This document shows positions 1,716 to 27,586 of a stretch of DNA of 64,000 bases, piece after piece. This DNA is from Bacteroidales bacterium (GTDB lineage: Bacteria > Bacteroidota > Bacteroidia > Bacteroidales > UBA932). A program made the position numbers and the translations under genes. The notes below the pieces were generated by a model. It made no database searches and was not told the origin of the DNA. It saw nothing but the letters and a program-made list of their open reading frames with translations. How positions within the stretch are numbered: the stretch's first letter is position 1; each line of letters starts with the position of its first letter. The stretch spans positions 1 through 64,000 of the forward strand of contig JAKSJN010000005.1 in assembly GCA_024402135.1 (NCBI GenBank). Direction: 5' to 3'.

Positions 1716-3479
1716 ATGAAAAAATCATTTAAAAATATACTTAGCGCAGCAGCGCTTCTCATGCTCACCGCCACCTCAGCCTTCGCTGATGGAGAAGATA
1801 AAGGTGTTAAGACTAACAAGTCAGTAAAAGACAACGGAGACGGTACTTATACTCTAACACTTGAAACTTGGGCAGATGGTGAGATTACCATTGAAACATC
1901 AACTGTACGCCAACCTATGGATGCTGTTCTTGTTTTGGATATCTCTGGATCGATGAATGAAACTTACAGTGGTAGTGGTAATAACAAAGTTACCAGACTC
2001 CAAGCCATGAAAACGGCTAGTAAGAAGTTCATTGATTTGGTAGCTGCAGATGCCGTTAAGGATAATGATAATATAGTTGATCACAAGATTTCTATTGTTG
2101 TATATTCTAGTGGTGATCATAACAAAATAGAAAGAGCCTTAACAGATGTTTCTCTTTCAGGCAATGCTGCTGCTTTGAAATCCGTTATCGATGGTTTAAG
2201 TTATGGTGGTGGAACTGAGCATGATGAGGGTCTTAAACTTGCTCAGAGTGCGTTGGGAACCAAGGATCCTAAGCGTTCTCGAGTAATAGTCTTTCTCACC
2301 GATGGTCAGCCTACTGGTTCAAATACTTCTTTTTTCGGATACACACGATGGGATGAAGATGTTGTTAAGAATGCTATTTCCACGTCTAATGACTTAAAGA
2401 AAGATGGAGTAACTATTTTTGCTATTGACATGGCTAGTGCATCTGAGGGAGGTGATGATGCGTCTACTTCTAGTGTTTATCTGGAGCATTTGTCCTCTAA
2501 TTATTCGACTTCTAGTTACAGGAGGAATTGGGGCCGATATGAATTCTCTGGAACTAGCGCAGGAGCTTCAGCTGATTACTATAAGTATGCTTCCTCAGAT
2601 TTGGATAACGTTTTCTCGAATATTGCTAAAGATATCACCAGTAATCTTGCTAAGACTGAACTGACTAAAGAGAATAGCAGTGTACGTGATTATATTACAC
2701 CTCAGTTTAAGATAAATGGTTCTGCTAGCGATATTAGAACAAAATTGGTGGCAGCAACTACACTATCTGATAAGTCGTTAGGCTGGGGCAGTGTTATTAA
2801 TTCGAGCGAAGACAATATTAAAGTTGAGGCACCTGATAATTCGGTGATTATAACAGGTTTTGATTTTCAAAAGTATGCCGTTGCTCAGAATCCTACAACA
2901 AAGCAGTGGACAGGAGCTAAGCTCGTTATTGAAATTGATATTGTGCAGAATGGCGACAACGCTGGTGGTGTAATTACTACGAATAAACCAGAGTCTGGTA
3001 TTTATCATGGAGAAGGTCAAGAGGCAGATTTTGAATCAACCGGTATCGAGTTCCCTGTACCTCAGGCAATCAATAAGGCTAAGGCGTATCTCCATATCGT
3101 GAAAAATGATCTTGCTGTTGGCGAGAGCGCGATCTTCGAAGTTATGGTCAGTGGTGAGGTTATCAATACCGTCATGGTTCAGAAGACTAGCGATGATGCA
3201 GTTGCTGATGCTTATGTACTTGTTGATTGGCTTACTTCGGCTGGAAAGGCAAAGGAGTACACATCTGCTAATCCACTTACCTTAGACGATATGGTAAAGT
3301 TTGTTGTAGTTGAAAAAGCTGATTGGGCTTGGAATTCTCCAGATCCTGCCTCAATCACTTCAGAACTTTACGAGGTAAATTCAGATACCGATCTTTGGGA
3401 AGAGTATACCTTCACCTTCGAAGCAGGTAATCCTAAATATGAAGGTGCACACAAGGAAATCTCTACCGTGATAGAATAA
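1716..3479 (+). CDS. Secreted von Willebrand factor A domain protein, putative fimbrial tip
   Basis: 587 aa with a Sec signal peptide (cleavage near residue 25, SAFA/DGED). A VWA domain spans about residues 68-300 with an intact metal-ion-dependent adhesion site: D75-I-S-G-S79, Thr167 (GGGTE) and Asp196 (FLTDGQPT). The remaining 280 residues are beta-rich with no domain I recognise. In Porphyromonas gingivalis, Mfa5 is a VWA-containing tip component encoded next to Mfa fimbrillins, so a tip adhesin role is a reasonable inference here. It follows the fimbrillin gene by 18 nt, is in the same operon and ends at a strong terminator. AT-richer than the core genome, which fits horizontal spread of the locus. 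Confidence 0.75.
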   Translation: MKKSFKNILSAAALLMLTATSAFADGEDKGVKTNKSVKDNGDGTYTLTLETWADGEITIETSTVRQPMDAVLVLDISGSMNETYSGSGNNKVTRLQAMKTASKKFIDLVAADAVKDNDNIVDHKISIVVYSSGDHNKIERALTDVSLSGNAAALKSVIDGLSYGGGTEHDEGLKLAQSALGTKDPKRSRVIVFLTDGQPTGSNTSFFGYTRWDEDVVKNAISTSNDLKKDGVTIFAIDMASASEGGDDASTSSVYLEHLSSNYSTSSYRRNWGRYEFSGTSAGASADYYKYASSDLDNVFSNIAKDITSNLAKTELTKENSSVRDYITPQFKINGSASDIRTKLVAATTLSDKSLGWGSVINSSEDNIKVEAPDNSVIITGFDFQKYAVAQNPTTKQWTGAKLVIEIDIVQNGDNAGGVITTNKPESGIYHGEGQEADFESTGIEFPVPQAINKAKAYLHIVKNDLAVGESAIFEVMVSGEVINTVMVQKTSDDAVADAYVLVDWLTSAGKAKEYTSANPLTLDDMVKFVVVEKADWAWNSPDPASITSELYEVNSDTDLWEEYTFTFEAGNPKYEGAHKEISTVIE

Positions 3480-3547: not shown

Positions 3548-3582
3548 CAGGGCCCGTTGCGAAACGAGCCCTGTTTCTTTTT
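3548..3582 (+). terminator. Rho-independent terminator of the fimbrial operon
   Basis: 11-bp stem with one mismatch (arms 3548-3558 and 3563-3573), GCGA tetraloop of the GNRA class, followed by TTTCTTTTT. Its right part is copied at 5142 and 7810. Confidence 0.8.
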
Positions 3583-3640
3583 CCGCTTTCGCCCTGACGC
3601 GAATGGCTTGGTGACGCACGAGGTCAGACCCTCTGCGTCA
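3552..3640. repeat. Repeat A, copy 1 (89 bp)
   Basis: Essentially identical to 5142-5230 without gaps; the first 31 bp also recur at 7810-7840. It contains the terminator stem and a second long palindrome (3611-3641, arms GTGACGCA and TGCGTCAC with further pairing inside). Confidence 0.8.
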
Positions 3641-3688
3641 CTCGCCTCCGTCTGATTGACGTCTCGCGTTCCTCTTATAATCGTGTTC

Positions 3689-3771
3689 TGCTACGAACAC
3701 TCTTCAAAGTGTAGCGGAAACCGACGGTACCATACGATTTAGCTACGTCTAAGTTGTCATATGTGGCGGAT
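3689..3771. repeat. 52-bp-period repeat cluster 1 (two units)
   Basis: Units at 3689-3719 and 3741-3771. Each is TGCTACG, 14 variable nt, then YGTAGCGGAA; the two are separated by 21 nt. The second unit is degenerate (AGCTACG ... TGTGGCGGAT) but keeps exact spacing. Same family as clusters at 5022, 6426, 7690, 9215 and 11355. Confidence 0.8.
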
Positions 3772-3868
3772 TCTTGCATGTAATCACTAATTCAACCTAC
3801 TAACACACACTTTTCCTCCCTTATCCTCAAATAATGTAAAATACAATCGTACATATTTTATAACACGA

Positions 3869-3899
3869 TTTGTCGATTTCTTACTTGAAGATATGTTTT
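3869..3899 (+). promoter_or_regulatory. Promoter of the first Rpn gene
   Basis: TTTG (3869-3872), 19-nt spacer, TATGTTTT (3892-3899; one mismatch to TAnnTTTG). The same promoter is conserved at 6605-6635 and 10178-10208. Confidence 0.7.
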
Positions 3900-3947
3900 C
3901 TTGCCGGACCTTGCGTCCATGTGTAACCATCAAATCAAGCATGCGCT

Positions 3948-4946
3948 ATGGCAAGAAAATATCGTCCTATCGTCTATGACGAGAATCAGAGATTCATCTA
4001 CCCGACCTCGGACTGGGGTTTCAAGCACATCTTCGGAACAGAGAAGAACAAGGACATACTTCTCGGCGTTCTTCAAAGGCTGCTGCCCGAACTGAACATT
4101 GAGAGCATCGAGTATCTTCCTCGTGACATAACCATTCCTGTGGGAAACATGAAGGATACAAGATTCGATGTGTTCTGTCGGCTCCAGGATGGCAGCAACG
4201 TCGTAGTCGAGATGCAGAACTACGCAGACAAATCCTTCCTGGATCGGTCGCTCGTCTACTCCGCCTCCGCGATTCTCGAACATCACGTGAACTCGAAACT
4301 GAAGAACAAGAGATACAAGATAAGCCGGACGATCTTTCTGGCCTTCCTTGGTGATCCGCTGTTCAGGGATGTGGACAGGACACCGGTTCGACTGTCGCTT
4401 TGCGATATCGACGAAGTGACCACTATCGTCAGGAATGACAAGCTGTTGCAAATCTTTGTTGAATTGCCTAAATTCGCCGGAAGCCTTGATCAGGTGGACG
4501 AGAACACACCGTTCGTGGAGAAACTGGCGCATGTCATGATGGAGATGGCGGATTGCCGGAGCATGCCGGACAACCTTGGCGACCCGATTCTCGAAGACGT
4601 ATTCAAGGCTGCGGACAGATTGCAAATGAGTATGGAAGAGAAAGAGAACTACATGATGTCGGTGCTCGGCGAGTTTGAGTACTACGCCAACATTGAAGAG
4701 GCTCGCGAGGCCGCCCGAGAGGAAGGCCTTGAAGAAGGTCGTGAGCAGGGTCTTGAAGAGGGACGTGAGAAAGGTCTTGAAGAAGGCCGCGAGAAAGGTC
4801 TTGAAGAGGGGCGTGAGAAAGGCTTGGAAGAAGGATTCGATCTGTCAAGGCGTGAAGTGGCCAGGAATATGAAGGCCGAAGGGTTTGCGCTTGACATCAT
4901 CGCGAAATGTACAAATCTCGACCTGGAAATCGTGAAAACTCTCTGA
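3948..4946 (+). CDS. Rpn family recombination-promoting nuclease / PD-(D/E)XK transposase-like protein (copy 1)
   Basis: 332 aa. The N-terminal half carries the PD-(D/E)XK core of the Rpn/PDDEXK_2 family: FKHIFG near residue 25, then D74 (FDVFC) and E88-x-Q90 (VVVEMQ) as candidate metal-binding residues. Rpn proteins are DNA endonucleases that raise recombination and are often annotated as putative transposases. Residues about 250-295 are a charged helical tract of 8-residue repeats (EEGREKGL), encoded by 24-bp DNA repeats; the C-terminus ends in a short helical domain (IIAKCTNLDLEIVKTL). The ATG at 3948 follows a good promoter. Almost identical to 10257-11279; only 30-40% alike by eye to the copies at 5367 and 6655. 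Bracketed by repeat clusters at 3689 and 5022. Confidence 0.85.
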   Translation: MARKYRPIVYDENQRFIYPTSDWGFKHIFGTEKNKDILLGVLQRLLPELNIESIEYLPRDITIPVGNMKDTRFDVFCRLQDGSNVVVEMQNYADKSFLDRSLVYSASAILEHHVNSKLKNKRYKISRTIFLAFLGDPLFRDVDRTPVRLSLCDIDEVTTIVRNDKLLQIFVELPKFAGSLDQVDENTPFVEKLAHVMMEMADCRSMPDNLGDPILEDVFKAADRLQMSMEEKENYMMSVLGEFEYYANIEEAREAAREEGLEEGREQGLEEGREKGLEEGREKGLEEGREKGLEEGFDLSRREVARNMKAEGFALDIIAKCTNLDLEIVKTL

Positions 4947-5021
4947 CGCCCCCATTGATGGTTACTTTGCCGTCCCTAACTGCCAGTTCTCCGACATCAC
5001 AGTCCTTCCTTTCTCGCGTTC

Positions 5022-5104
5022 TGCTACGAACTTTCCTCATACTGTAGCGGAAACCTGCGTCACCCGACGAATCTGCTACGCCATAGCGGACAAACGTAGC
5101 GGAA
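5022..5104. repeat. 52-bp-period repeat cluster 2 (two units)
   Basis: Units at 5022-5052 and 5074-5104, both intact at the conserved arms and 21 nt apart. The 70 bp that follow are also conserved after cluster 4, and partly after cluster 5. Confidence 0.85.
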
Positions 5105-5141
5105 CCCTTTGACTGACATGAAAAGCCCCGAAACCTAAGCC

Positions 5142-5230
5142 GCCCGTTGCGAAACGAGCCCTGTTTCTTTTTCCGCTTTCGCCCTGACGCGAATGGCTTG
5201 GTGACGCGCGAGGTCAGACCCTCTGCGTCA
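5142..5230. repeat. Repeat A, copy 2 (89 bp)
   Basis: Offset of exactly 1590 bp from copy 1 over the full 89 bp. Here it does not follow a plus-strand gene directly, so it seems to have been copied with its terminator hairpin rather than serving a nearby gene. Confidence 0.8.
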
Positions 5231-5264
5231 GCAACAATGTTATTGATGAATCGTATGCGGGAAA

Positions 5265-5302
5265 CAAAAAGAGGCAGCAACTCTTTGTGTCTGCTACCTC
5301 TT
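5265..5302 (-). terminator. Terminator of the minus-strand Rpn gene
   Basis: Arms 5269-5278 and 5293-5302 (10 bp, one mismatch) with a T-run on the minus strand, about 65 nt past the stop codon at 5367. Confidence 0.7.
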
Positions 5303-5366
5303 GGCTGATTCATTATGCGATATATCGCGACTGTCTTATTCTGACAGTTTGTTTGCAATTATTGTT

Positions 5367-6254
5367 TTACAACGCCTCTATTTCTTCGGGAGAAAGTCCG
5401 AGAGCTTCGGAAATCTTTTCCACTGGAACACCGACCTGCTTGAGGCTCTTCGCATTGGCAAGCCTCTCTTCCTCTTTGCCTCTCGCTTCGCCGATAGCAA
5501 TGCCTTCCTCTATTCCCTCCTTGCGGGAATAGTACATGTCGTTGTTGTAGTCTCTTTCGTACATCATGGCCTTCTCGTACTTGATTCGTTTATCTCCATC
5601 GAACAGGGCAATCTCGGCGGCGGTGTAGAGCGACGACATCTCCTCGGAATCGAACCCGTCCGGAACTTCATCCAGGGCATCCATGTGCTTGAGGCTGTAC
5701 AGCCACTGGTCAAGCATGTCCACGCACTCATCGCTCCTCTTGCTGAAAAAGCCCAGTTGTACAAATGTACAAATAATTGTCTTCGGAGCAATCTCGTCCA
5801 CATCTTTTCTCGCCATCGTGTATCTGACTATGCATTTGCTGTCGGTCACATGCGCCAGCTGCCCCTCCATGATGCCCAGGACATAGACCGGCGAAAGATT
5901 GTACATCTTCTTGCCTTTGTTGTGCTGAAGCGAATATACCTTGCTGCCGTAGTAGACGCTCCGCGTGTAGAAATCCTGGCTGTTCTTGATCTTCTGCATC
6001 TCGACCACAAAGCGCGCACCCGTGTCGTCCTTGCAGTGAAGATCATAGCGGACGCCCTTGGTCGTGAACGTCTCTCCCATCTGCTCGTTGTTCAAGAACT
6101 CGATCTCCACGATGTGATGTTCGCCGTCCAGAAATCGGTTGAGCAGGCTGATCACCACACCCTTGTTCCTCTCATCCCCGAAGACTGCCTTGAAGCCGCA
6201 GTCCATCAGCAGTGCCGCATAGCGGGACTCATTCTTTGTCTGTATCTCTTTCAT
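5367..6254 (-). CDS. Rpn family recombination-promoting nuclease / PD-(D/E)XK protein (copy 2)
   Basis: 295 aa from the ATG at 6254 (an in-frame start at 6290 would add 12 residues, MFTSCRQQTYET, with no family support). Core motifs: FKAVFG (residues 21-26), D71 (YDLHC) and E85-x-Q87 (VVEMQ). The C-terminus has a short GIEEGIAIGEARGKEEE helix instead of long tandem repeats, then LKQVGVPVEKISEALGLSPEEIEAL, a small helical domain shared in outline with the other copies. Opposite in orientation to its three paralogues. Bracketed by clusters 2 and 3. Predicted DNA endonuclease; no neighbouring partner gene suggests a multi-protein complex. Confidence 0.8.
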   Translation of the reverse strand: MKEIQTKNESRYAALLMDCGFKAVFGDERNKGVVISLLNRFLDGEHHIVEIEFLNNEQMGETFTTKGVRYDLHCKDDTGARFVVEMQKIKNSQDFYTRSVYYGSKVYSLQHNKGKKMYNLSPVYVLGIMEGQLAHVTDSKCIVRYTMARKDVDEIAPKTIICTFVQLGFFSKRSDECVDMLDQWLYSLKHMDALDEVPDGFDSEEMSSLYTAAEIALFDGDKRIKYEKAMMYERDYNNDMYYSRKEGIEEGIAIGEARGKEEERLANAKSLKQVGVPVEKISEALGLSPEEIEAL

Positions 6255-6284
6255 GGTTTCATAAGTTTGTTGCCGGCAAGATGT

Positions 6285-6484
6285 GAACAACTATCCGTTT
6301 AACCCAATAAAACACGTTTAACGAAAAAAAACGCCGCTGGAGGACACTGAGAGTGCTTTTTGCTTATGACTCTTTCGGGGAATAATTGCAGAAATCAGAC
6401 GCGGAAAGTCCGATATCTTGCGTTCTGCTACGAACTTTCCTCATACTGTAGCGGAAACCTGCGCCACCCGACGAATCTGCTACG
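6285..6484. repeat. Repeat B, copy 1 (200 bp, runs into cluster 3)
   Basis: Aligns without gaps to 9074-9273. It begins GAACAACTATCCG, includes a GACACTGAGAGTGC hairpin followed by TTTTT, and ends inside the second 31-bp unit of the cluster. Confidence 0.85.
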
Positions 6485-6508
6485 CCTAAGTTGTCATATG
6501 TGGCGGAA
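6426..6508. repeat. 52-bp-period repeat cluster 3 (two units)
   Basis: Units at 6426-6456 and 6478-6508. The second ends TGTGGCGGAA, the same variant as in cluster 1, and from there to 6655 the sequence tracks the segment 3741-3922. Confidence 0.85.
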
Positions 6509-6604
6509 TCTTGCACGTATCATCAATTCAACCTACTAACACACACTTTTCCTCCCTTATCCTCAAAAAATGTAAAATACAATCGAACATATTTGAAAAC
6601 ACGA

Positions 6605-6635
6605 TTTGTCGATTTCTTACTTGAAGATATGTTTT
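6605..6635 (+). promoter_or_regulatory. Promoter of the third Rpn gene
   Basis: TTTG (6605-6608), 19-nt spacer, TATGTTTT (6628-6635), identical in layout to 3869-3899. Confidence 0.7.
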
Positions 6636-6654
6636 CTTGTCTGACCTTGCGTCC

Positions 6655-7587
6655 ATGGATAGTTTAAATAAATCAATGGCGCCGGAGTCAGACTTCGAGC
6701 GCGAGCCTTCAAGGAAGGACAAGTATCAACATCTATTGATTGACGACGCGTTCAAGCGCGTCTTTGGAGAGGAGGGAAAGGAAGACCTGATGATCGGACT
6801 GATCAAAGCGGTGCTCCCGGAACTGGACATCGTGTCGTTGACATACATTTCCAACACCGCCCCACACCAAGGCACGGACACGAAGAAAAGCGTTTATGAT
6901 GTGCGATGCAAACTCGCGGACGGGACGTATGTCATAGTGGAGGTACAGCAGAAAGACCAGTTGAACTTCATGGACCGCGCGCTCTACTACGGCAGCATGC
7001 CGATATCGAACCAGGTTGGCGATGGAGGTGAGTATGCCCTTGACCCTGTAATTGTAATCGCATTCCTTAATTTCAAGCTGAAGCACGGCCCCGAGTGGAA
7101 GCCGAGGATAAAGAGCCACTACATGCTCAAGGATGCCGAGGGCAGGGACACGATGACGGACAAACTTCAGTTCGTGTTCATCGAACTCAAGCGCTTCACA
7201 AAAAAGGTCGAGGAGTGCGAGACTTTCGAGGAAAAGCTATACTTTTGTATGCGGCACATGTTCAAGCTGGAGAACCGTCCCGAGAACCTTAGTGGAGAAT
7301 ACTTTGACAATCTCTTCTGGACCGCGGACACCGCGAACATGACGGCAAAGGAACACGAAGCATACGTAAGAGCCATGGCATCAGAACGCGACATAAGAAA
7401 CCAGATCAAATACGGCATCCAGCAAGGTATCGAACAAGGTATCGAACAAGGAATCGAGCAAGGCATTCAGCAAGGTAAAGCTGAGGAAAAGCTTGAAACA
7501 GCAAAGAAGCTAAAGTCCGCAGGAATCGCCGCATCGATCATATCCGAATGCACGGGACTTGATATGGAGGCCATCATGGCTCTATAA
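6655..7587 (+). CDS. Rpn family recombination-promoting nuclease / PD-(D/E)XK protein (copy 3)
   Basis: 310 aa from ATG 6655; an in-frame TTG at 6637 lies at the expected transcription start and is rejected. Core: FKRVFG (residues 33-38), D82 (YDVRC), E96-x-Q98 (IVEVQ). The C-terminal helix is a GIEQ repeat with a 12-bp DNA period, unlike the 24-bp units of copies 1 and 4, followed by LKSAGIAASIISECTGLD. The coding region is clearly diverged from copy 1, yet about 115 bp of leader (6542-6655) stay nearly identical to it. Bracketed by clusters 3 and 4. Confidence 0.85.
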   Translation: MDSLNKSMAPESDFEREPSRKDKYQHLLIDDAFKRVFGEEGKEDLMIGLIKAVLPELDIVSLTYISNTAPHQGTDTKKSVYDVRCKLADGTYVIVEVQQKDQLNFMDRALYYGSMPISNQVGDGGEYALDPVIVIAFLNFKLKHGPEWKPRIKSHYMLKDAEGRDTMTDKLQFVFIELKRFTKKVEECETFEEKLYFCMRHMFKLENRPENLSGEYFDNLFWTADTANMTAKEHEAYVRAMASERDIRNQIKYGIQQGIEQGIEQGIEQGIQQGKAEEKLETAKKLKSAGIAASIISECTGLDMEAIMAL

Positions 7588-7626
7588 TAGAATCTTAGTG
7601 CGATAATAGTATATTAGAAAATAAAG

Positions 7627-7659
7627 TAATCCCGGTTCCAAATCTGGCAACCGAGATTA
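7627..7659 (+). terminator. Inverted repeat after the third Rpn gene
   Basis: 11-bp arms (7627-7637, 7649-7659) with one mismatch and an 11-nt loop, 40 nt past the stop. The T-run is weak, so the terminator role is a guess. Confidence 0.4.
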
Positions 7660-7689
7660 ATTGATGTTTATTGTCGTTCCCCTGCGATT

Positions 7690-7772
7690 TGCTACGGCAT
7701 GGCCGCCAAACGTAGCGGAAACCGGAAGCCACCAATGAATCTGCTACGCCAACGCGGACAAACGTAGCGGAA
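7690..7772. repeat. 52-bp-period repeat cluster 4 (two units)
   Basis: Units at 7690-7720 and 7742-7772. The second unit and the following 70 bp, to 7840, match 5074-5170 closely and include the 31-bp start of repeat A. Confidence 0.85.
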
Positions 7773-7920
7773 CCCTTTGACTTACATGAAAAGCCCAGAA
7801 ACCTAAGCCGCCCGTTGCGAAACGAGCCCTGTTTCTTTTTGCACTATTGCCTCTAGCGTAAGCATCCGAGTAAGCATTCGTAAGCATCCGACGAAGTACG
7901 TGTGACTTATCATAACACCG

Positions 7921-7955
7921 AAGTGGCAGCAACTATCGAGAGTTTGCTGCCACTT
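7921..7955. terminator. Perfect 12-bp hairpin
   Basis: Arms 7921-7932 and 7944-7955 (AAGTGGCAGCAA and its complement), 11-nt loop. Resembles the hairpin at 5265-5302 in its GGCAGCAA core. T-run short on both sides. Confidence 0.5.
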
Positions 7956-7999
7956 TCATCTAGAGACTGTCATTGACCGTCATTCGCTGTCATTGACTG

Positions 8000-8138
8000 T
8001 TACTTTGCCGTCACCGGGTGCCAGTTCTCCGGAAGTAGCATGGTGATGCCCTTTCCGGAGGGAAGACGTCTTACTGTGTCCTCGAACCACGACCTAATTT
8101 CACTATCGTGAGCCTTGCAGTAGGCGAACGATGATTTA
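8000..8138 (-). pseudogene. Remnant of an IS66-type transposase C-terminus
   Basis: The minus strand reads about 45 codons including FAYCKAHDSEIRSWFEDTV, RRLP, then LLPENWHPVTAK and a stop. A CK..(H)...-YL/WF-..VL.RLP...LLP.NW pattern is characteristic of the IS66 transposase C-terminal domain; the match is from memory. The frame is closed by a stop at its upstream end, so nothing else of the element remains. The last 10 codons (ENWxxVTAK) also appear after the Rpn genes at about 4961-4996 and 11293-11330. Confidence 0.5.
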
Positions 8139-8152
8139 CATCATCATATTGA

Positions 8153-8935
8153 CTATTTCTGAGTCAGAAATGATGGTGTTTGTTCAAAATTGTTCCTATA
8201 TTTGCTGTGATGTTTGACTCGTTCAGGCAGCGGGGCCGTCGTCGGCCGGTAAAGGGTTACAGTTTCTGTAACTCTTTTCATTTTAAGACTTTCATGCCTA
8301 GTTCCTTTCCATCTGATACATAGATATTCTTCCTGATTATATCGAATGCAGGGTTTGGTGAGTCCGGCCTGAGGATGTGACATGCGCTCTGATGACACCC
8401 AATAGGTGCCTGTCTCCCTCAGCGTATTGTAACTCTGTGAAAGGGTCTTATCTTCTTCTTTCCCACGTCGCTCCAACATAGCTTCAATATAAGCCCCTAC
8501 TCCGGTGTTTTTGTCATCCACATAGAATACGGCACGCTCCAACAAGAAAGCAAGAGACTGTGAGTAAATATCACCAAGTTTACCATATTTACGAATGTAT
8601 TCATCTTTCAAGACAGCGCTGCTAACAATAACATAGGCGTCATTTGTTCCGAGTATGCGGTCCAACTCTTGATAGAACAGTTTCCTGGCATCCGCATCCT
8701 GGAGTATGGCAAACGCATTCTTATGGCGCCTTATTTCATGAGAATGCAGAATGATGCCTTTGTCGTTCCATATTTTCAGTTTCAAATCCTTCATTTCTTT
8801 CTCAAGGTTACGAGCCTGGTCACGGGATACGATGATTCCGCAGAGCGTAAAGATAGGAAAGTTAGCATCGTACTTTGATAGGCACTGATCACCGCACTCA
8901 TCCGCAAACAGAAAGTATTTCTTTTTCTTCACCAT
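8153..8935 (-). CDS. DUF3800 domain protein with a frameshifted C-terminus (probable pseudogene)
   Basis: 260 aa as an open frame. The first 185 residues fit the DUF3800 family: FADECGDQ near residue 9 (acidic motif at the start of an RNase H-like fold), FTLCGIIVS, HSHEIR and a family-like FYxxLDRIL region. After about residue 185 (MSHPQAGLTK) the frame yields basic, low-quality sequence. In the neighbouring frame the same DNA reads NPAFDIIRKNIYVSD then GKELGMKVLK and a stop at 8278, as DUF3800 proteins usually end; the conserved (G)LQxADL segment that should precede it is missing. A terminator begins right after 8278. I infer an internal deletion with frameshift. Function of the family is unknown; it is frequent in mobile and defence-rich regions. 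Confidence 0.7.
   Translation of the reverse strand: MVKKKKYFLFADECGDQCLSKYDANFPIFTLCGIIVSRDQARNLEKEMKDLKLKIWNDKGIILHSHEIRRHKNAFAILQDADARKLFYQELDRILGTNDAYVIVSSAVLKDEYIRKYGKLGDIYSQSLAFLLERAVFYVDDKNTGVGAYIEAMLERRGKEEDKTLSQSYNTLRETGTYWVSSERMSHPQAGLTKPCIRYNQEEYLCIRWKGTRHESLKMKRVTETVTLYRPTTAPLPERVKHHSKYRNNFEQTPSFLTQK
8251..8277 (-). terminator. Hairpin directly after the original DUF3800 stop
   Basis: 12-bp stem with one G-U pair and a 3-nt loop (arms 8251-8262 and 8266-8277). It lies inside the extended open frame but right after the stop codon of the alternative frame, supporting the frameshift interpretation. Confidence 0.6.
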
Positions 8936-9007
8936 ATAGCTTGTTTCATTAATATAACTGCGTAAACCTGCGAGCTGTTTCTCATCTTTCTTTTTATTGA
9001 TTAACCT

Positions 9008-9030
9008 TTATGGGGCGATTATCCCCATAA
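9008..9030. repeat. Perfect inverted repeat TTATGGGG / CCCCATAA
   Basis: 8-bp arms with a 7-nt spacer, 70 bp upstream of the DUF3800 start on the minus strand. Could be an operator or a structured leader element. Confidence 0.5.
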
Positions 9031-9073
9031 TGAATTCGCCGCAACTATGTTCATATTAATGCTGGTAAGTTGA

Positions 9074-9273
9074 GAACAACTATCCGTTTAACCCAATGAA
9101 ACACGTTTAACGAAATAAAACGCCGCTGGAGGACACTGAGAGTGCTTTTTGCTAATGACTCTTTCGGGGAATAATTGCAGAAATCAGACGCGGAAAGTCC
9201 GATATCTCGCGTTCTGCTACGAACTCTCCTCATACTGTAGCGTAAACCCGCGCCACCCGACGAATCTGCTACG
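9074..9273. repeat. Repeat B, copy 2 (200 bp, runs into cluster 5)
   Basis: Gap-free match to 6285-6484 with few substitutions. Confidence 0.85.
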
Positions 9274-9297
9274 CCAACGCGGACAAACGTAGCGGAA
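9215..9297. repeat. 52-bp-period repeat cluster 5 (two units)
   Basis: Units at 9215-9245 (ends CGTAA instead of CGGAA) and 9267-9297. The downstream flank matches that of clusters 2 and 4 for about 40 bp, then diverges. Confidence 0.85.
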
Positions 9298-9412
9298 CCC
9301 TTTGACTTATATGAAAAGCCCCGAAACCGAAGCCGGCCCTTCGCATGAAACGATGCGCGGGGGACATACCCTCCACGTCACTTGCTATTGTCAGGATTGC
9401 CTCCACATGACC

Positions 9413-9443
9413 TTTGTAATCAAAGACGAAATACCTATCTTTA
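9413..9443 (+). promoter_or_regulatory. Promoter of the hairpin RNA / rhuM
   Basis: TTTG (9413-9416), 19-nt spacer, TATCTTTA (9436-9443). The predicted start is near 9450, exactly where the hairpin begins. Confidence 0.7.
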
Positions 9444-9450
9444 CATCATA

Positions 9451-9508
9451 AGCAAGCAAGATATGACTTTCTACGTGCCCCGCACGTGTGGAGTCTGTCT
9501 TGCTTTTT
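9451..9508 (+). ncRNA. Candidate small hairpin RNA upstream of rhuM
   Basis: Between the promoter and the rhuM start codon the sequence folds into one long stem: 9454-9465 pairs with 9496-9505, continuing inward to a tight apical helix ACGTGC/GCACGT (9473-9478 with 9482-9487) closed by CCC. Several pairs are G-U, which keep pairing in RNA but not in DNA. The stem ends in TTTTT (9504-9508), so promoter, hairpin and intrinsic terminator form a self-contained transcription unit of about 58 nt. It may be a free small RNA or an attenuator for rhuM. I do not recognise it as a known RNA family. Confidence 0.6.
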
Positions 9509-9535
9509 AGTTTAATGATCTTAATACTGTTAAAG

Positions 9536-10288
9536 ATGGAGAACACTGGAATTGGAGAGACTGGAAGAGGAGCAATTGTCCTCTATCAGACGGCTGACGG
9601 CAAGACCAGCCTTGATGTAAAACTTGAAAATGAGACGGTGTGGCTGTCACAGGCGCAGATGGCGAATTTGTTTGAAAAAGATCAGTCTGTGATTGCACGT
9701 CATATTAAGAACGCGCTTGCAGAGGGAGAGATGGGGGAGAGTAATATGCAGATTTTGCATAATAGTCTTTCAAAGTACAGACCGACGACAGTGTATAATC
9801 TTGATGTCATAATAAGTGTAGGATACCGAGTGCATAGTCAGAGGGGCGTTCAGTTTCGCCGTTGGGCTAATACCGTCCTCAAGGACTATATCGTCAAAGG
9901 CTATGCAATCCGCAATGTCCTGTTGGAAGAACGTTATTATGAACTGCGCTCGCTCGTGGACACTATGGGCAAGGCGATGCAATACCTCGATACCGGCTAC
10001 TCTGATCAGATCAAATCAATATTTGATGTCGTAAAAGATTACACCTACGCACTCGATACTCTTGACAGCTATGATTATCAGACGCTTGAAATTGCGTTCA
10101 CGTCGGGTCAAGAAAAGATTCTTCCTCCCTTATCCTCAAATAATGTAAAATACAATCGTACATATTTTATAACACGATTTGTCGATTTCTTACTTGAAGA
10201 TATGTTTTCTTGCCGGACCTTGCGTCCATGTGTAACCATCAAATCAAGCATGCGCTATGGCAAGAAAATATCGTCCTATCGTCTATGA
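9536..10288 (+). pseudogene. rhuM: RhuM family protein, 3' end replaced by an Rpn element
   Basis: Starts at ATG 9536 (an upstream in-frame GTG at 9488 lies in the hairpin). The first 195 codons are RhuM-like: an IVLYQTADGK strand, an HTH-type segment WLSQAQMANLFEKDQSVIARH, then YNLDVIISVGYRVHSQRG, FRRWA and YIVKGYAIR. RhuM-type proteins carry this N-terminal DNA-binding-like region and often a Fic/Doc-like C-terminal domain. At 10121/10122 the sequence switches abruptly into the duplicated Rpn segment, whose leader is read out of context for about 55 codons until a stop at 10288, inside the Rpn gene. The C-terminal domain is therefore missing. Truncation by insertion is the simplest reading; an assembly join at a repeat is the alternative. 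Confidence 0.75.
10178..10208 (+). promoter_or_regulatory. Promoter of the fourth Rpn gene
   Basis: Identical to 3869-3899: TTTG, 19-nt spacer, TATGTTTT. Now embedded in the broken rhuM frame. Confidence 0.65.
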
Positions 10289-11279
10289 CGAGAATCAGAG
10301 ATTCATCTACCCGACCTCGGACTGGGGTTTCAAGCACATCTTCGGAACAGAGAAGAACAAGGACATACTTCTCGGCGTTCTTCAAAGGCTGCTGCCCGAA
10401 CTGAACATTGAGAGCATCGAGTATCTTCCTCGTGACATAACCATTCCTGTGGGAAACATGAAGGATACAAGATTCGATGTGTTCTGTCGGCTCCAGGATG
10501 GCAGCAACGTCGTAGTCGAGATGCAGAACTACGCAGACAAATCCTTCCTGGATCGGTCGCTCGTCTACTCCGCCTCCGCGATTCTCGAACATCACGTGAA
10601 CTCGAAACTGAAGAACAAGAGATACAAGATAAGCCGGACGATCTTTCTGGCCTTCCTTGGTGATCCGCTGTTCAGGGATGTGGACAGGACACCGGTTCGA
10701 CTGTCGCTTTGCGATATCGACGAAGTGACCACTATCGTCAGGAATGACAAGCTGTTGCAAATCTTTGTTGAATTGCCTAAATTCGCCGGAAGCCTTGATC
10801 AGGTGGACGAGAACACACCGTTCGTGGAGAAACTGGCGCATGTCATGATGGAGATGGCGGATTGCCGGAGCATGCCGGACAACCTTGGCGACCCGATTCT
10901 CGAAGACGTATTCAAGGCTGCGGACAGATTGCAAATGAGTATGGAAGAGAAAGAGAACTACATGATGTCGGTGCTCGGCGAGTTTGAGTACTACGCCAAC
11001 ATTGAAGAGGCTCGCGAGGCCGCCCGAGAGGAAGGCCTTGAAGAGGGCCGCGAGAAAGGCCTTGAAGAGGGACGTGAGAAAGGTCTTGAAGAGGGACGTG
11101 AGAAAGGTCTTGAAGAAGGCCGCGAGAAAGGTCTTGAAGAGGGGCGTGAGAAAGGCTTGGAAGAAGGATTCGATCTGTCAAGGCGTGAAGTGGCCAGGAA
11201 TATGAAGGCCGAAGGGTTTGCGCTTGACATCATCGCGAAATGTACAAATCTCGACCTGGAAATCGTGAAAACTCTCTGA
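10257..11279 (+). CDS. Rpn family recombination-promoting nuclease / PD-(D/E)XK protein (copy 4)
   Basis: 340 aa; the first 258 residues are the same as those of 3948-4946, with D74 and E88-x-Q90 intact. The helical tract has one more 8-residue EEGREKGL unit, and its first unit differs at the DNA level (a Lys replaces the Gln of copy 1), so the tract has changed since duplication. The last 45 residues are again identical. It starts 135 bp after the breakpoint in rhuM with its own promoter and is followed by the IS66-like scar and repeat cluster 6. Confidence 0.85.
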   Translation: MARKYRPIVYDENQRFIYPTSDWGFKHIFGTEKNKDILLGVLQRLLPELNIESIEYLPRDITIPVGNMKDTRFDVFCRLQDGSNVVVEMQNYADKSFLDRSLVYSASAILEHHVNSKLKNKRYKISRTIFLAFLGDPLFRDVDRTPVRLSLCDIDEVTTIVRNDKLLQIFVELPKFAGSLDQVDENTPFVEKLAHVMMEMADCRSMPDNLGDPILEDVFKAADRLQMSMEEKENYMMSVLGEFEYYANIEEAREAAREEGLEEGREKGLEEGREKGLEEGREKGLEEGREKGLEEGREKGLEEGFDLSRREVARNMKAEGFALDIIAKCTNLDLEIVKTL

Positions 11280-11354
11280 CGCCCCCATTGATGGTTACTT
11301 TGCCGTCACTGGCTGCCAGTTCCCCGACATCACAGCCCTTTCATTCTCGCCTTC

Positions 11355-11489
11355 TGCTTCGAACTCTCTTCGTAGTGTAGCGGGAACCCACTGCTACCGA
11401 CGAATCTGCTACGACATGGGCGACAAACGTAGCGGAAAACGGTGACTCACTTGGTATTTGCTACGACTTCATTGATATTCGTAGCGGAA
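11355..11489. repeat. 52-bp-period repeat cluster 6 (three units)
   Basis: Units at 11355-11385 (TGCTTCG variant), 11407-11437 and 11459-11489, each exactly 52 bp from the next. The only cluster with three units and the last before the core genome resumes with agcS at 11512. Confidence 0.85.
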
Positions 11490-11511: not shown

Positions 11512-12948
11512 TTAGTTCCAGAGAGAGATGCCGGTTTGTTCCTTGGCGTCGAGGGATGTCTTGTGGAAGGCAGGTTGCTTGCCGGAAGACAGCTGGGCGA
11601 CGTAGTCCTTGAGCAGCATAAAGGCGCGACGGCTGAGCGGCACGATTGCGATAAGGTTGCAAAGCGTCAGCAGTCCCATCATGATGTCGATGATCGTCCA
11701 GGCGGTCGAGAGGCTGACGAGCGAACCGAGGAATACCATGACGCAGACGAATACGCGATATGCGGTCATGAGCCATTTCTTTCCGGACATGAAGCGGATG
11801 TTTGCCTCGCCGTAGTAGGTATTGCCGAGCACTGAACTGAACGCGAAGAAAAGGATCGCAAGGGTCACGAAGAGCACGGCAGCGCCGCCGACCTCATTCT
11901 GGAGCGCACCCTGGGTCAGGTTGATGCCGTCAAGAGTTCCGTCAAGAGGTGCGCCGCTGACGAGGATGATGAATGCTGTACATGAGCATACGACGAGGGT
12001 GTCAACGAATACGCCGAGAGCCTGGACGAGTCCCTGTTCTACAGGATGATTGACGTCAGCTACGGCTGCCGCGTTAGGAGCCGAGCCTTCTCCTGCCTCG
12101 TTGCTGAACAGACCGCGACGGAAGCCCTGCATCACGGCAGCACCTATGCCGCCACCGACAGCCTGCTCCCAGCCGAATGCGCTTCGGAAGATGAGCGCGA
12201 GGACGTCAGGAATCTTTGTAAAGTTCGTGACAACGACGAAGATCGCGAGCAGCAGGTAACCGACAGCCATTATCGGAACGATCACCGAGCTGACTCTTGA
12301 GATGCTGCGGATACCGCCGAAGATGATCAGACAGGTAAGCGCGGCAAGAGCGATTCCACTGACAATCGGCTTGAATCCGAATGAATTCTCGAGGGCTGAG
12401 CAGATGGTATTGGTCTGCATCATCGAGTTTGCAAGACCGAAAGTCAGGGTTATGAGTACTGCGAAGATGATTCCCATCCAGCGCTTTCCGAGACCGAACT
12501 GCATATAGTACGCAGGTCCGCCGACAAAGGAATCCTTACCTTTTATCTTATAGAGCTGCGCCAGGGTCGACTCGACAAATGATGTCGCGGCTCCGAACAG
12601 AGCCATTACCCACATCCAGAATACGGCGCCGGGACCGCCGACGACGATAGCTGAAGCGACACCGGCAAGGTTACCTGTACCGACGCGTGAAGCGAGCGAG
12701 ACCGCGAATGCCTGGAACGAGGAGATGCTTTTCTTTTCCTTGCCTTTCCCGGCCTGAGCATTCTCCGAAGCTTTTTCCTTTGCAGCCCTGTTGGCCTCGC
12801 CGCCAAAGAGCAGCTTGCACATCTGCGGGAACAGACGGAACTGGACAAAGCCGCTACGGATTGAGAAATACAGCGCACATGCAGCCAGAAGGCCGACCAG
12901 AAGATAACCCCAGAGGAAATCGTTGAATGTCTCTAATAACCTGAACAT
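11512..12948 (-). CDS. agcS: Sodium:alanine/glycine symporter (AgcS family)
   Basis: 478 aa with about ten hydrophobic membrane segments. GGPGAVFWMWVMALFG near residue 105 is the signature of the alanine or glycine:cation symporter family, and SNEAGEGSAPNAAA is another conserved stretch. It would import alanine or glycine with Na+ across the inner membrane. It starts 30 nt after the stop of the M20 deacylase gene, so it is likely the last gene of the arginine operon, although its substrate has no direct place in that pathway. Gene end lies 22 bp from repeat cluster 6, marking the border of the accessory island. Confidence 0.85.
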   Translation of the reverse strand: MFRLLETFNDFLWGYLLVGLLAACALYFSIRSGFVQFRLFPQMCKLLFGGEANRAAKEKASENAQAGKGKEKKSISSFQAFAVSLASRVGTGNLAGVASAIVVGGPGAVFWMWVMALFGAATSFVESTLAQLYKIKGKDSFVGGPAYYMQFGLGKRWMGIIFAVLITLTFGLANSMMQTNTICSALENSFGFKPIVSGIALAALTCLIIFGGIRSISRVSSVIVPIMAVGYLLLAIFVVVTNFTKIPDVLALIFRSAFGWEQAVGGGIGAAVMQGFRRGLFSNEAGEGSAPNAAAVADVNHPVEQGLVQALGVFVDTLVVCSCTAFIILVSGAPLDGTLDGINLTQGALQNEVGGAAVLFVTLAILFFAFSSVLGNTYYGEANIRFMSGKKWLMTAYRVFVCVMVFLGSLVSLSTAWTIIDIMMGLLTLCNLIAIVPLSRRAFMLLKDYVAQLSSGKQPAFHKTSLDAKEQTGISLWN

Positions 12949-12978
12949 ATCGGTAAAGGTAATGAAAAAGTCCCAAAA

Positions 12979-14103
12979 CTAATCCGAGATGACCTCGGCT
13001 AGACACTTGATGAAATCGATGTAGCCGTTGACGCCGCGACGCAGCTCATTGACGGTGATAAACTCATCCTTATGGTGCGAACGGCGCGAATCGCCGGGAC
13101 CCATCTTGACGGCCTCGCAATAGATACGTACCCAGTCTGAAGTGGTCGGAGAAGAAAACTGCTCAAGTCCGAGAAGACCGATAACAGCCATCAGCAGCGA
13201 AGACTTAGGAGTCGCAGAAGAACGATTCTTGAGATTGCGCGCAGTCAGCTTGCTCTCGCACATAGCCTGGAGCTCCTCAAGCAGCTCAGGATTTGAATAC
13301 TGCTCGGTAGGGCGTATGTCGACCACGAACGAACAGGTTCCGGGAATGACATTATGAGCGCTGCCCGCATTGATCTGGGTGACATTCATCTTCACCTCAC
13401 CCATGGTAGGGGAGACACGCTCGAACTTATGGGCACGCAGCTTCGCAATGTCGTCCATCGCGATGTAAAGCGCATTCCGACCCTCCTCTGCACGCGCAGC
13501 ATGGCAGGTCACACCCTCTGCAACACCATCCAGAACAAGAAGACCACGCTCCGAAGTCGCTGGCTTCATTCCTGTAGGTTCACCGACGATAGCCCAGGTA
13601 GGATTGACGTTCTTTGGATGGATAAGTGCCATTCCACCATTGCCGGAACGCTCCTCCTCGGAAGAAATCACCACTTCGATATTGAAAGGAAAACTCTCGT
13701 CAAGCAAAGCGCGGTAAGCTGCAATCATGCTGACAACACAGCCGCCATCATCATTGCTGCCAAGTCCCGCGATGATATCATCGTGCGAATCAGCATCGAC
13801 GGTGGACAGGTCAAAAGCCGCGGCGACGTCAGCAGCCGCAGGCTGATAAGGGTCGAAAGAATAACCGTCGGCGGGACTGACAGTGTCGCAATGGGCGCAG
13901 AGCATGAGAGTCTGGCGCTCTGGATCATGGTCGGGTCGACGGATGATAAGGCTGTTCGCGATACGCTCGTACTGCAGCCCCTTTGAATCGAGGAATCCGG
14001 CAATATGCGAACATACCTTCTCCTCCTCGAAGGTAGGGGAAGGTATGGCAATCATCTCGCGAAGGAGAGCAACGGACTCACTTAAAAGGTTCTCTATGTC
14101 CAT
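12979..14103 (-). CDS. M20 family N-acylornithine deacylase (ArgE-like)
   Basis: 374 aa. M20 metallopeptidase motifs: LMLCAHCDT (first zinc His), GSNDDGG (bridging Asp), ISSEEERSGNGG (catalytic and metal Glu pair), GEPTGM, and a C-terminal SHHKDEF with the last metal His. Place in the cluster, immediately after argB (2-nt gap), and the succinyl-type carbamoyltransferase upstream indicate removal of the N-acyl (probably succinyl) group from ornithine or citrulline. Citrulline is the likelier substrate, because carbamoylation here occurs on the acylated compound. Resembles ArgE/DapE; exact acyl specificity is inferred from context. Confidence 0.75.
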   Translation of the reverse strand: MDIENLLSESVALLREMIAIPSPTFEEEKVCSHIAGFLDSKGLQYERIANSLIIRRPDHDPERQTLMLCAHCDTVSPADGYSFDPYQPAAADVAAAFDLSTVDADSHDDIIAGLGSNDDGGCVVSMIAAYRALLDESFPFNIEVVISSEEERSGNGGMALIHPKNVNPTWAIVGEPTGMKPATSERGLLVLDGVAEGVTCHAARAEEGRNALYIAMDDIAKLRAHKFERVSPTMGEVKMNVTQINAGSAHNVIPGTCSFVVDIRPTEQYSNPELLEELQAMCESKLTARNLKNRSSATPKSSLLMAVIGLLGLEQFSSPTTSDWVRIYCEAVKMGPGDSRRSHHKDEFITVNELRRGVNGYIDFIKCLAEVISD

Positions 14104-16981: not shown

Positions 16982-17943
16982 TAGAATGCTGATGCTTTAA
17001 GTTTGAGGCCGGTGTTCTCCGGAAGTCCGAAGATGATGTTCATGTTCTGGACAGCCTGGCCCGATGCTCCCTTGAGGAGATTGTCGATGACTGACGAGAT
17101 GACGAGCTTCTTGCCGTGCTTCTCGACGTTGACGAGGCACTTGTTGGTGTTTACTACCTGTTTGAGGTCGATAGGGAAGTCTGCCACGTGGGTGAATGCT
17201 GCGCCCTCGTAGTAGTTGCGGTACAGCTGGAGAGCCTCTTCGCCTTCGAGCTCGCAGTCGACGGTCGCACTGACAAAGATGCCGCGTGCGAAGTCACCGC
17301 GCATAGGCACGAAGTTGATGTCGGCTTCGAAACCAGGCTGAAGGATGCCCATGTCGCGGCGGATCTCCTTGAGGTGCTGGTGCTCGAATACCTTGTATGT
17401 TGACAGGTTGTTGTTGCGCCAGCTGAAATGGGTGGTCGCACCAGGCTTCACGCCTGCACCTGTCGATCCTGTGATCGCGGTGATGTTGATCTCGCTGTTC
17501 AGCAGACCTGCGGCAGCAAGCGGAAGAAGCGCAAGCTGGATGGCGGTCGCGAAACATCCGGGGTTGGCAACGAGCTTCGCGCCGCGGATCTTTGCGATCT
17601 GCATCTCGGGAAGGCCGTATACGAATCCTTCGCTCTCGTCGCGGAAATCCTGGGCGAGGTCTACGACCTTGAGGTTCTCAGGACGCGCGTTCTCCTGCCA
17701 GAATCCAGCGCTCTTGCCATGCGCCGAGCACATGAAGAGAACGTCGATGGCGTTGAGGTCGAAACTGTCGCTGAAGAGCATGTCGGTGTCGCCGTAGAGG
17801 CCCTCGTGGACCTTCCAGAGCGGATTTCCGGCATTGCTCTCGGAATGCACGAATGTCACTTCCACCTCGGGGTGGTTGATGAGGATTCTGAGAAGCTCGC
17901 CTGCAGTATAGCCTGCACCGCCGATGATACCTACCTTGATCAT
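16981..17943 (-). CDS. argC: N-acylglutamyl-phosphate reductase
   Basis: 320 aa from ATG 17943 (MIKVGIIGGAGYTAGELLR); a longer open frame runs upstream into argG and is rejected because it adds a basic, low-complexity 37-residue extension. GGAGYTAGE is the NADP-binding loop, and NPGCFATA contains the catalytic Cys. Follows the argG stop by 1 nt. Confidence 0.92.
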   Translation of the reverse strand: MIKVGIIGGAGYTAGELLRILINHPEVEVTFVHSESNAGNPLWKVHEGLYGDTDMLFSDSFDLNAIDVLFMCSAHGKSAGFWQENARPENLKVVDLAQDFRDESEGFVYGLPEMQIAKIRGAKLVANPGCFATAIQLALLPLAAAGLLNSEINITAITGSTGAGVKPGATTHFSWRNNNLSTYKVFEHQHLKEIRRDMGILQPGFEADINFVPMRGDFARGIFVSATVDCELEGEEALQLYRNYYEGAAFTHVADFPIDLKQVVNTNKCLVNVEKHGKKLVISSVIDNLLKGASGQAVQNMNIIFGLPENTGLKLKASAF

Positions 17944-26657: not shown

Positions 26658-27296
26658 ATGGAAGAAAAAAGAATAAATGAGCAGGAAAGTCTCGCGCTCA
26701 TTACCCGTATGATAAGTCAGACCAAGCAGGAGTCTGCAATAGGTTCAGGCAATGTTTTCCTCGTCTGGGGTTATCTCTGTACATTCATGTCCTTGGCGGT
26801 ATTTGCCATTACACTTGTCACCAAGGGAGGTGGATGGGGATGGTTGTATCTCGCGATTCCACTGTTGGGCTTCGCCATCGCAGCCATCGTAGCCAGAAGA
26901 ACCAGCAAGAAATACAATGGCCCGACCACCTATCAGGGAAAGAGCATCAACGCCATCTGGGGAGTTCTGTCATCACTGTTTGGCGCATATGCCGGTATAT
27001 GTCTTGTTTCTACGATATTCAATTGGGGTGATGCTCATGTGTGGTCTGGAATGTTTCTTCTAGGACTTCTACTTCCCGGAATAGGAACATACGCTACCGG
27101 AGTCATACTCAAGGAAGGACAGGTCCAGTCGTGCGGACTCACAGGATGTATCATTGGACTCTTTTTCCTCCGCGAGTTCTGCAATAGTTCAGCAATCTCA
27201 CCATCATGGTGTCTGGGAATGGCGTTGGCGATGGTCATCTCACTGGTGATTCCTGGTCACATTCTTAACGCAAAGGCAAAACAGGCTAACTCATGA
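26658..27296 (+). CDS. Multi-pass membrane protein of a regulator-membrane protein operon
   Basis: 212 aa from ATG 26658 (MEEKRINEQESLALITRMI); a GTG at 26637 would add a KKKTK segment and is less likely. Cytoplasmic N-terminus of about 35 residues, then about five hydrophobic segments. Bacteroidales have many such small membrane proteins encoded together with a winged-helix regulator; function unknown. Its stop overlaps the regulator start (ATGA). Confidence 0.7.
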   Translation: MEEKRINEQESLALITRMISQTKQESAIGSGNVFLVWGYLCTFMSLAVFAITLVTKGGGWGWLYLAIPLLGFAIAAIVARRTSKKYNGPTTYQGKSINAIWGVLSSLFGAYAGICLVSTIFNWGDAHVWSGMFLLGLLLPGIGTYATGVILKEGQVQSCGLTGCIIGLFFLREFCNSSAISPSWCLGMALAMVISLVIPGHILNAKAKQANS

Positions 27297-27586
27297 TGCA
27301 GGAACTTGATCCATTGCTTCACAGCCAGTTGAGGCTGGCTGTGATGTCCATCCTGCTGGGCGTGGAGCAGGCCGACTTCGTCTATCTCAAGGAGAAGACA
27401 GAGTCTACTGCCGGCAACTTGAGCGTCCAGCTGGAGAAACTGGCCGCGGCGGGCTACATTTCGAAGGAGACCGACGGCTCCGGTGCAAAGGCGAGGACCA
27501 TATGCCGAATGACTGACACAGGCCGTGCGGCCATGCAGGCTTATGTGGATGCGCTGAAGACTTACTTTACCGGCCTTAATCAGTGA
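27293..27586 (+). CDS. Winged-helix transcriptional regulator (HTH_34/MarR-like)
   Basis: 97 aa. LLHSQLRLAVMSILLG, then LKEKTESTAGNLSVQLEKL (recognition helix region) and GYISKETDG (wing) follow the small ArsR/MarR-like family used for self-contained regulators in Bacteroidales. Translationally coupled to the membrane protein. It is the obvious candidate to bind the GTTTAT-AAA-ATAAAC sites upstream; no ligand domain is present, so the signal may come from the membrane protein. Confidence 0.8.
   Translation: MMQELDPLLHSQLRLAVMSILLGVEQADFVYLKEKTESTAGNLSVQLEKLAAAGYISKETDGSGAKARTICRMTDTGRAAMQAYVDALKTYFTGLNQ

Follow-up and report, generated by a model that had tools for sequence, protein, structure and literature searches.

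An rpn-centred gene array with palindromic clusters, probably reshaped by recombination, in a Bacteroidales genome

We analyzed a 64,000-nucleotide stretch (the window) at the start (base 1) of contig C30, JAKSJN010000005.1, from the draft genome of a Bacteroidales bacterium (2.6 Mb, 34 contigs, 98.1% complete). Near its left end lies an island in which six clusters of short palindromes alternate with genes, four of which belong to the Rpn family. Near-identical intergenic frames in this island hold divergent or unrelated genes, and comparison of the sequences established that the halves of these frames have been recombined inside the clusters. We hold it probable that the island is a hypervariable, rpn-centred and likely antiphage array, which changes by recombination among its leaders, its REPIN-like clusters and rpn copies dispersed in the genome.

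The clusters form a family of 103 nt (starts 3679, 5012, 6416, 7680, 9205 and 11345; start-to-start distances 1333, 1404, 1264, 1525 and 2140 bp), of which five copies are 67-94% identical to the reference copy. Together they hold 13 units of the form CTGCTACG-N14-CGTAGCGG (8+14+8 bp), every one on the + strand. Clusters 1 (3688..3769; units at 3688 and 3740), 2 (5021..5102; 5021 and 5073), 3 (6425..6506; 6425 and 6477), 4 (7689..7770; 7689 and 7741) and 5 (9214..9295; 9214 and 9266) contain two units each, and cluster 6 (11354..11487; 11354, 11406 and 11458) contains three. The step from unit to unit is exactly 52 bp in all seven cases. Pfam matches (PF12784 four times, PF12686 and PF13310) bore out the original prediction that the six clusters delimit five segments with four Rpn genes, a DUF3800 gene and rhuM. 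The order between the clusters is Rpn1 (+), Rpn2 (-), Rpn3 (+), DUF3800 (-) and finally a truncated rhuM (+) followed by Rpn4 (+).

Repeats A and B had already been noticed beside the clusters; both were confirmed, and three further shared flanks (F, T and G) came to light. Leader B precedes Rpn1 (3783..3921, +) and recurs at 6519-6657 and, from 10122, before Rpn4. Leader F (6271..6424), upstream of Rpn2 (-), has a copy at 9060-9213 upstream of DUF3800 (-). Trailer T (5103..5183), right of cluster 2, recurs to the right of both cluster 4 (ending at 7851) and cluster 5 (ending at ~9353). Repeat A (3552..3640) recurs at 5142-5230 (88/89 identical), and 7810-7851 repeats its initial 42 bp once more. 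One arrangement is found twice in succession: cluster, leader B, Rpn (+), cluster, trailer T, gene (-), leader F.

These leaders and spacers are mostly 89-99% identical, whereas the Rpn proteins are 23-32% identical and the other genes are unrelated. Rpn1 and Rpn3 have 234 bp of upstream DNA in common at 88.9% identity, and their proteins are 29.6% identical; the common stretch stops at the Rpn3 ATG, while the equivalent ATG before Rpn1 opens another frame and the annotated Rpn1 start lies 29 bp downstream. Upstream of Rpn2 and DUF3800, 238 bp including the cluster are 92% identical, with undetectable protein similarity. The remaining comparisons gave protein identities of 23-26% for Rpn1 and Rpn2 and 31.8% for Rpn2 and Rpn3. 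A check for tandem duplication revealed that a two-gene unit recurs in its spacers, but the genes are 23-32% identical or unrelated. We rejected divergence after a plain tandem duplication because of this difference between the proteins and the spacer DNA (at least 89%). Since the spacers are alike and the genes are not, either genes moved between shared frames or the frames themselves were copied from gene to gene, and the segments look like exchangeable contents of such frames.

All 15 cluster pairs were compared in four parts: left flank, unit 1 plus spacer, unit 2, and right flank. Shared flanks scored 73-289, against a maximum of 24 in 300 shuffled comparisons, and pairs below 50 were counted as none. 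Clusters 3 and 5 have the left flank in common (92%) but not the right one, and clusters 1 and 3 the right flank (93%) but not the left one. Only the left flank is common to clusters 2 and 6 (97%) and only the right flank to clusters 2 and 4 (93%), and clusters 2 and 3 share neither, with unit 1 98% identical. Unit 2 tracks the right flank (clusters 1 and 3 versus 2, 4 and 5). Cluster 5 is a hybrid: its left flank is that of cluster 3, its unit 2 equals that of cluster 4 (100%) and its right flank resembles those of clusters 2 and 4 (86% over 58 bp). These combinations require at least one crossover inside a cluster. Left and right flanks thus assort independently and switch within clusters, between unit 1 and unit 2, and we conclude that cluster-bounded segments have recombined. 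Clusters and leaders offer homology of a length that makes such exchange possible without a special enzyme.

Rpn4 (10257..11279, +), together with part of its leader, is a recent copy of Rpn1. The corresponding stretch 3813-4974 is free of differences outside the C-terminal (RpnS) repeat block, where Rpn4 carries a 24-bp (8-aa) insertion and four substitutions. The left edge of the copy lies inside rhuM, from TTCCTCCC on, where some of these bases may be rhuM's own, and the right edge continues into homologous DNA leading to cluster 6. Rpn proteins have been described by Zhong et al. (2023; PMC10327210) as antiphage toxin-antitoxin genes with a separately made C-terminal RpnS that has 4-aa repeats in varying number; one extra repeat altered which RpnS blocked which RpnL. 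Rpn4 and Rpn1 likewise differ in the number of short C-terminal repeats. By analogy, Rpn4 might have acquired a new self-recognition type.

Elsewhere, the genome contains four clear DNA relatives of Rpn3. The copy on contig C29 is identical over 749 bp (6679-7427), with a different C-tail and different flanks, and two relatives on contig C33 have one internal deletion in common. The latter lie at 4910-5272 and 26697-27359 of that contig (L141 and L142), and one of them is further reduced. Ends differ among the Rpn3 relatives, and neither the defined ends nor the target-site duplication of an insertion sequence were seen. No palindromic unit was found at these dispersed copies; therefore the clusters are not a general agent of rpn copying. 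Judged by these comparisons, rpn copying is evidently recent and ongoing in this genome. Genes have also been lost from the array, since a C-terminal remnant of a lost gene persists at 8000..8140 (- strand) and traces of the same end follow Rpn1 (4953-4993) and Rpn4 (11286-11326).

We propose that the array grew by duplication of a two-gene unit. Homologous recombination or gene conversion, with leaders, clusters and dispersed rpn copies as partners, would then have swapped, copied or removed genes. As REP/REPIN-like intergenic palindromes, the clusters may provide homology and perhaps breakage-prone sites, and a dedicated site-specific recombinase would be unnecessary. We infer that phage pressure is the reason for the changes and that DUF3800 and rhuM have an antiphage role, too. 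If this is right, the array would illustrate one route by which a bacterium keeps a varying stock of self-inhibited antiphage nucleases; upstream DNA, in some relatives together with the antitoxin-coding tail, would stay constant while the cores are swapped, and the swap points would be visible in the sequence. Several points weigh against this explanation. Homologous recombination is deduced from sequence and was not directly observed. The 13 units keep a strict geometry, with unchanged lengths although their loops are unrelated, which suggests a function beyond homology. Furthermore, duplication alone leaves the entry of DUF3800 and rhuM unexplained. Finally, frames like these are not the rule: in a fresh draw of 20 Rpn genes from the genus, just 3 were flanked on both sides by direct repeats.

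A more far-reaching proposal, which we consider distinctly unlikely, would make the palindromic clusters and leaders the working exchange sites of an integrase-free shuffling of defence genes. Rpn nucleases would cut at the palindromes or close to them, and toxin cores, antitoxin tails and whole genes (rhuM, DUF3800) would change places behind ready-made leaders as the breaks are repaired between clusters and leaders. According to a suggestion of Zhong et al. (PMC10327210), the recombination that produces duplicated rpn genes may be initiated by RpnL proteins, and the array described here would make this idea testable.

The clusters might instead be operator arrays, in which inverted 8-bp half-sites are bound by a dimeric regulator and the array is copied along with regulatory DNA. 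We regard this as unlikely, although not negligible. In 54 of 78 unit pairs the loops are unrelated (mean identity 26%), yet the arms remain 87% identical, and the loop length of 14 and the step of 52 are constant across the 13 units despite the change in loop sequence. Arms and geometry appear constrained. In addition, the half-sites lie 22 bp apart from centre to centre, the 52 bp between units correspond to about five helical turns, and clusters 1, 3 and 5 are located upstream of genes. However, clusters 2, 4 and 6 are located at gene ends, the two half-sites constantly differ at one position, and no regulator was identified.

We judge it improbable that a RAYT-type transposase has spread the clusters as mobile REPINs and that their proximity to rpn genes is incidental. 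The description of REPIN structure and tandem REPIN clusters by Bertels and Rainey (2011; PMC3116915) agrees with the clusters in the conserved inverted ends, the less conserved spacer, which the arm and loop identities above reproduce, and the ordered tandem grouping in intergenic DNA. A related genome, G028, moreover contains a dispersed element of like architecture. On the other hand, the arms are only 8 bp long, unlike in the REPINs portrayed there, and 13 of the 14 recognisable units of the genome lie in this one island and not dispersed over intergenic DNA. No RAYT gene was found in the genome; the single Y1_Tnp transposase gene is IS200-like (122.9 bits; REP-associated model 21.3, cut-off 80), and its contig holds no unit. 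The orphan unit, on contig C23 at 96980 (L007, 4981-5010), has a loop of 14 and lies ~115 bp from a tRNA-Met gene. The sequence GTAGCGGAAA, with at most one mismatch, occurs 19 times in the window (2.7 expected; maximum of 100 shuffles 6), and 11 of these 19 occurrences are in the island.

The cluster sequence was not met in any further genome searched. A DNA search detected it in none of 100 relatives, and the exact cluster pattern was absent from all 199 other genomes of the genus. In genome_contigs we obtained five isolated matches, none with a second unit at 52 bp; the one context that was inspected lay inside a coding frame. Both matches in viral_contigs were within reading frames. A phage search with leader F, cluster 3 and leader B gave no match, and the sole match of a plasmid search with 5000-9400 was 62 bp within an E. 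coli rpn gene. The GTAG- and CGTC-tagged palindromic repeats, as characterized in PMC3733652, are likewise short intergenic palindromes with G-T stem pairs and tandem grouping, and some of their families are small. The clusters differ from the repeats in that account by the strict 52-bp step, and no terminal GTAG or CGTC tag was identified outside their stems.

The original prediction saw a cassette-like array in the island. Exchange of cluster-bounded segments is upheld, best of all by the independent assortment of flanks, and also by the leaders shared over unlike genes. A true cassette system, in which the clusters are the sites of an off-contig site-specific recombinase that moves single-gene segments, we consider very improbable. 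One gene per segment, the flank switch inside the clusters and the strict unit geometry would fit it, the contig ends 3.5 kb left of the island, and two related genomes have tyrosine recombinase genes in the vicinity of rpn genes. Integron cassette arrays also have one gene between successive repeats and a mixed cargo. Unlike these, the island has leaders and carries genes on both strands. The statement that the window lacks an integrase held: the integron-integrase model had no match on contig C30, of which only ~3.5 kb are known left of the island. The whole draft genome gave no match above cut-off either; weak matches below it on contigs C14 and C31 were paralleled by similar ones in all 14 control genomes. 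A search by eye for the attC core brought up no attC-like site, and in place of a single attC for each gene the segment boundaries have two or three short hairpins spaced by 52 bp. In addition, rpn copies occur elsewhere in the genome without clusters, and the homology suffices for ordinary recombination.

We find it hardly plausible that the clusters act as RNA hairpins after transcription, as an RNA antitoxin or a leader would: the + strand pairs in 96.9% of cells, with G-U at several places, compared to at most 58% with the partner slid, but no pair is changed on both sides and the covariation score stays within that of shuffles, so that a structured RNA with covariation is unsupported, there was no Rfam match up to E 1, and whole-cluster DNA folding reached z values of only -0.6 to -2.1.

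Both rpn arrays and palindromic repeats are already known. According to Zhong et al. (PMC10327210), the arrays originate in tandem direct duplication and have no transposase-like ends, a view in line with the growth by duplication proposed above. Like them, the island combines several rpn genes with a C-terminal repeat number that varies between copies, and no transposon terminal repeats were seen. It differs from those arrays by the additional DUF3800 and rhuM genes, by leaders and palindromic clusters that are common to unrelated genes, and by the flank switch inside clusters. A limited search of the open-access literature yielded no description of unrelated genes with common leaders and palindromic clusters in an rpn array, and no paper combining RhuM with DUF3800.

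Among 120 genomes of the genus, including the one analyzed here, 81 had PDDEXK_2 and 52 had RhuM matches. We examined 10 within-stretch pairs of Rpn or Rpn-like genes from other genomes, which had been chosen partly for the presence of two rpn genes or repeats. In seven of these pairs the proteins are 26-39% identical and 47-434 bp of upstream DNA are common at 79-99%. In five of them (L065, L066, L067, L069 and L070) the positions of the common stretch relative to the start are nearly equal (differing by no more than 75 bp), and it is offset by 140 bp in L064 and 379 bp in L068. L061 has no more than 23 bp in common, and the genes of L063 and L071 are simply recent duplicates. Six pairs (L064-L068 and L070) also have the gene's 3' end in common, at 70-89% over 110-217 bp. 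Common ends with a divergent core therefore recur, most clearly in L067 (434 bp, 90%; proteins 27.5%) and L070 (83 bp, 99%; proteins 30.5%), which speaks for the reading of the island proposed above. In L067 (G028, contig C63) the Rpn C-terminal region is duplicated just 3' of both rpn genes (86% and 91%; 2880-3324 and 17371-17825), and these duplicates resemble the separate rpnS genes that Zhong et al. describe in their account of RpnS (PMC10327210).

When the 600 bp before a gene were compared with the 600 bp after it (E up to 1e-3), direct repeats turned up for 1 of 135 control genes (0/127 and 1/8, with seven more too short in the second set). The three positives among the freshly drawn Rpn genes correspond to a one-sided Fisher value of 0.007 versus controls. 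Score-ranked Rpn genes gave 6/26 (three more too short; one-sided Fisher 6.5e-5) and RhuM genes 6/23 (3.3e-5), the latter drawn from the 25 best-scoring loci minus one that was too short and one without a frame at the site. A first Rpn count of 22/53 was biased, as many loci had been picked after repeats or tandem rpn pairs were noticed, and we did not rely on it. According to these counts, the majority of Rpn and RhuM genes lack such a repeat. Some repeats are trivial: in L094 a promoter-like stretch, in L092 the end of an upstream frame, and elsewhere a palindrome of the common GTCATTCTGAGCG type. In L092 (G132, contig C15) a full-length rhuM stands between 74-bp direct repeats (99%; 1228-1301 and 2341-2414), which copy the upstream frame end.

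Several genomes of the genus have palindromes of the GTCATTCYGAGCG type next to rpn genes (L053, L062, L067, L069 and L135). The G028 element consists of TGTATGTACAG, 26 bp and YTGTACATACAG; its architecture is like that of the clusters in the window, and its sequence is unrelated. It has 12-bp arms, loops that vary in sequence but not in length, and tandem groups of up to four units, several at contig ends. There are 23 units at 12 places, and 10 of 11 steps are 84 bp, one being 83. The idea that this element is rpn-specific was dropped, as only 3 of the 12 places found in a search of the genome are near rpn genes; the other nine stretches, which were fetched, contained no Rpn frame. The analysis places on record a palindrome whose 52-bp step is unusually strict, together with a sequence-unrelated counterpart of 84-bp step in another species. 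Tyrosine recombinase genes were seen at two loci. In L058 (G135, contig C3; 12277-14084) such a gene (12709-13653) is flanked by inverted repeats of 58 bp (95%). An rpn gene is close by, ~180-bp repeats in either orientation surround the site, and the locus looks invertible. In L066 (G110, contig C27) one is found at 9438-10367, between two rpn genes with a common upstream 56-bp repeat.

In the island itself, all four Rpn proteins have the N-terminal PD-(D/E)XK Rpn domain, with PF12784 (PDDEXK_2) and TIGR01784 above cut-off. Rpn1 (3948..4946, +) has 332 aa with charged C-terminal repeats (PF12784 E 9.7e-32), Rpn2 (5367..6254, -) has 295 aa (E 2.1e-47) and Rpn3 (6655..7587, +) has 310 aa; a PDB sequence search with Rpn3 gave no match. 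The DUF3800 protein (8153..8935, -; 260 aa; PF12686 E 1.9e-9) matched no PADLOC family. RhuM (9536..10121, +; PF13310) matched the PADLOC candidate families PDC-S23 and PDC-S05, the former over 5-188 of 327. Rpn4 does sit where rhuM had been thought to carry a fourth Rpn, but rhuM is cut short at ~10121, where the Rpn4 copy starts, and six-frame translation revealed no rhuM end downstream of Rpn4. No tRNA was found in the window, and promoter-like and terminator-like sites there were not above shuffled sequence. To the right of the island, frames resemble transporter and arginine genes, as judged by eye from their translations. The best long matches of the neighboring transporter gene in other genomes, at 65-67% identity, were too distant for an empty-site comparison and were used as control genes. 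To the left, profile matches identified a fimbrillin-like gene and a VWA-domain gene.

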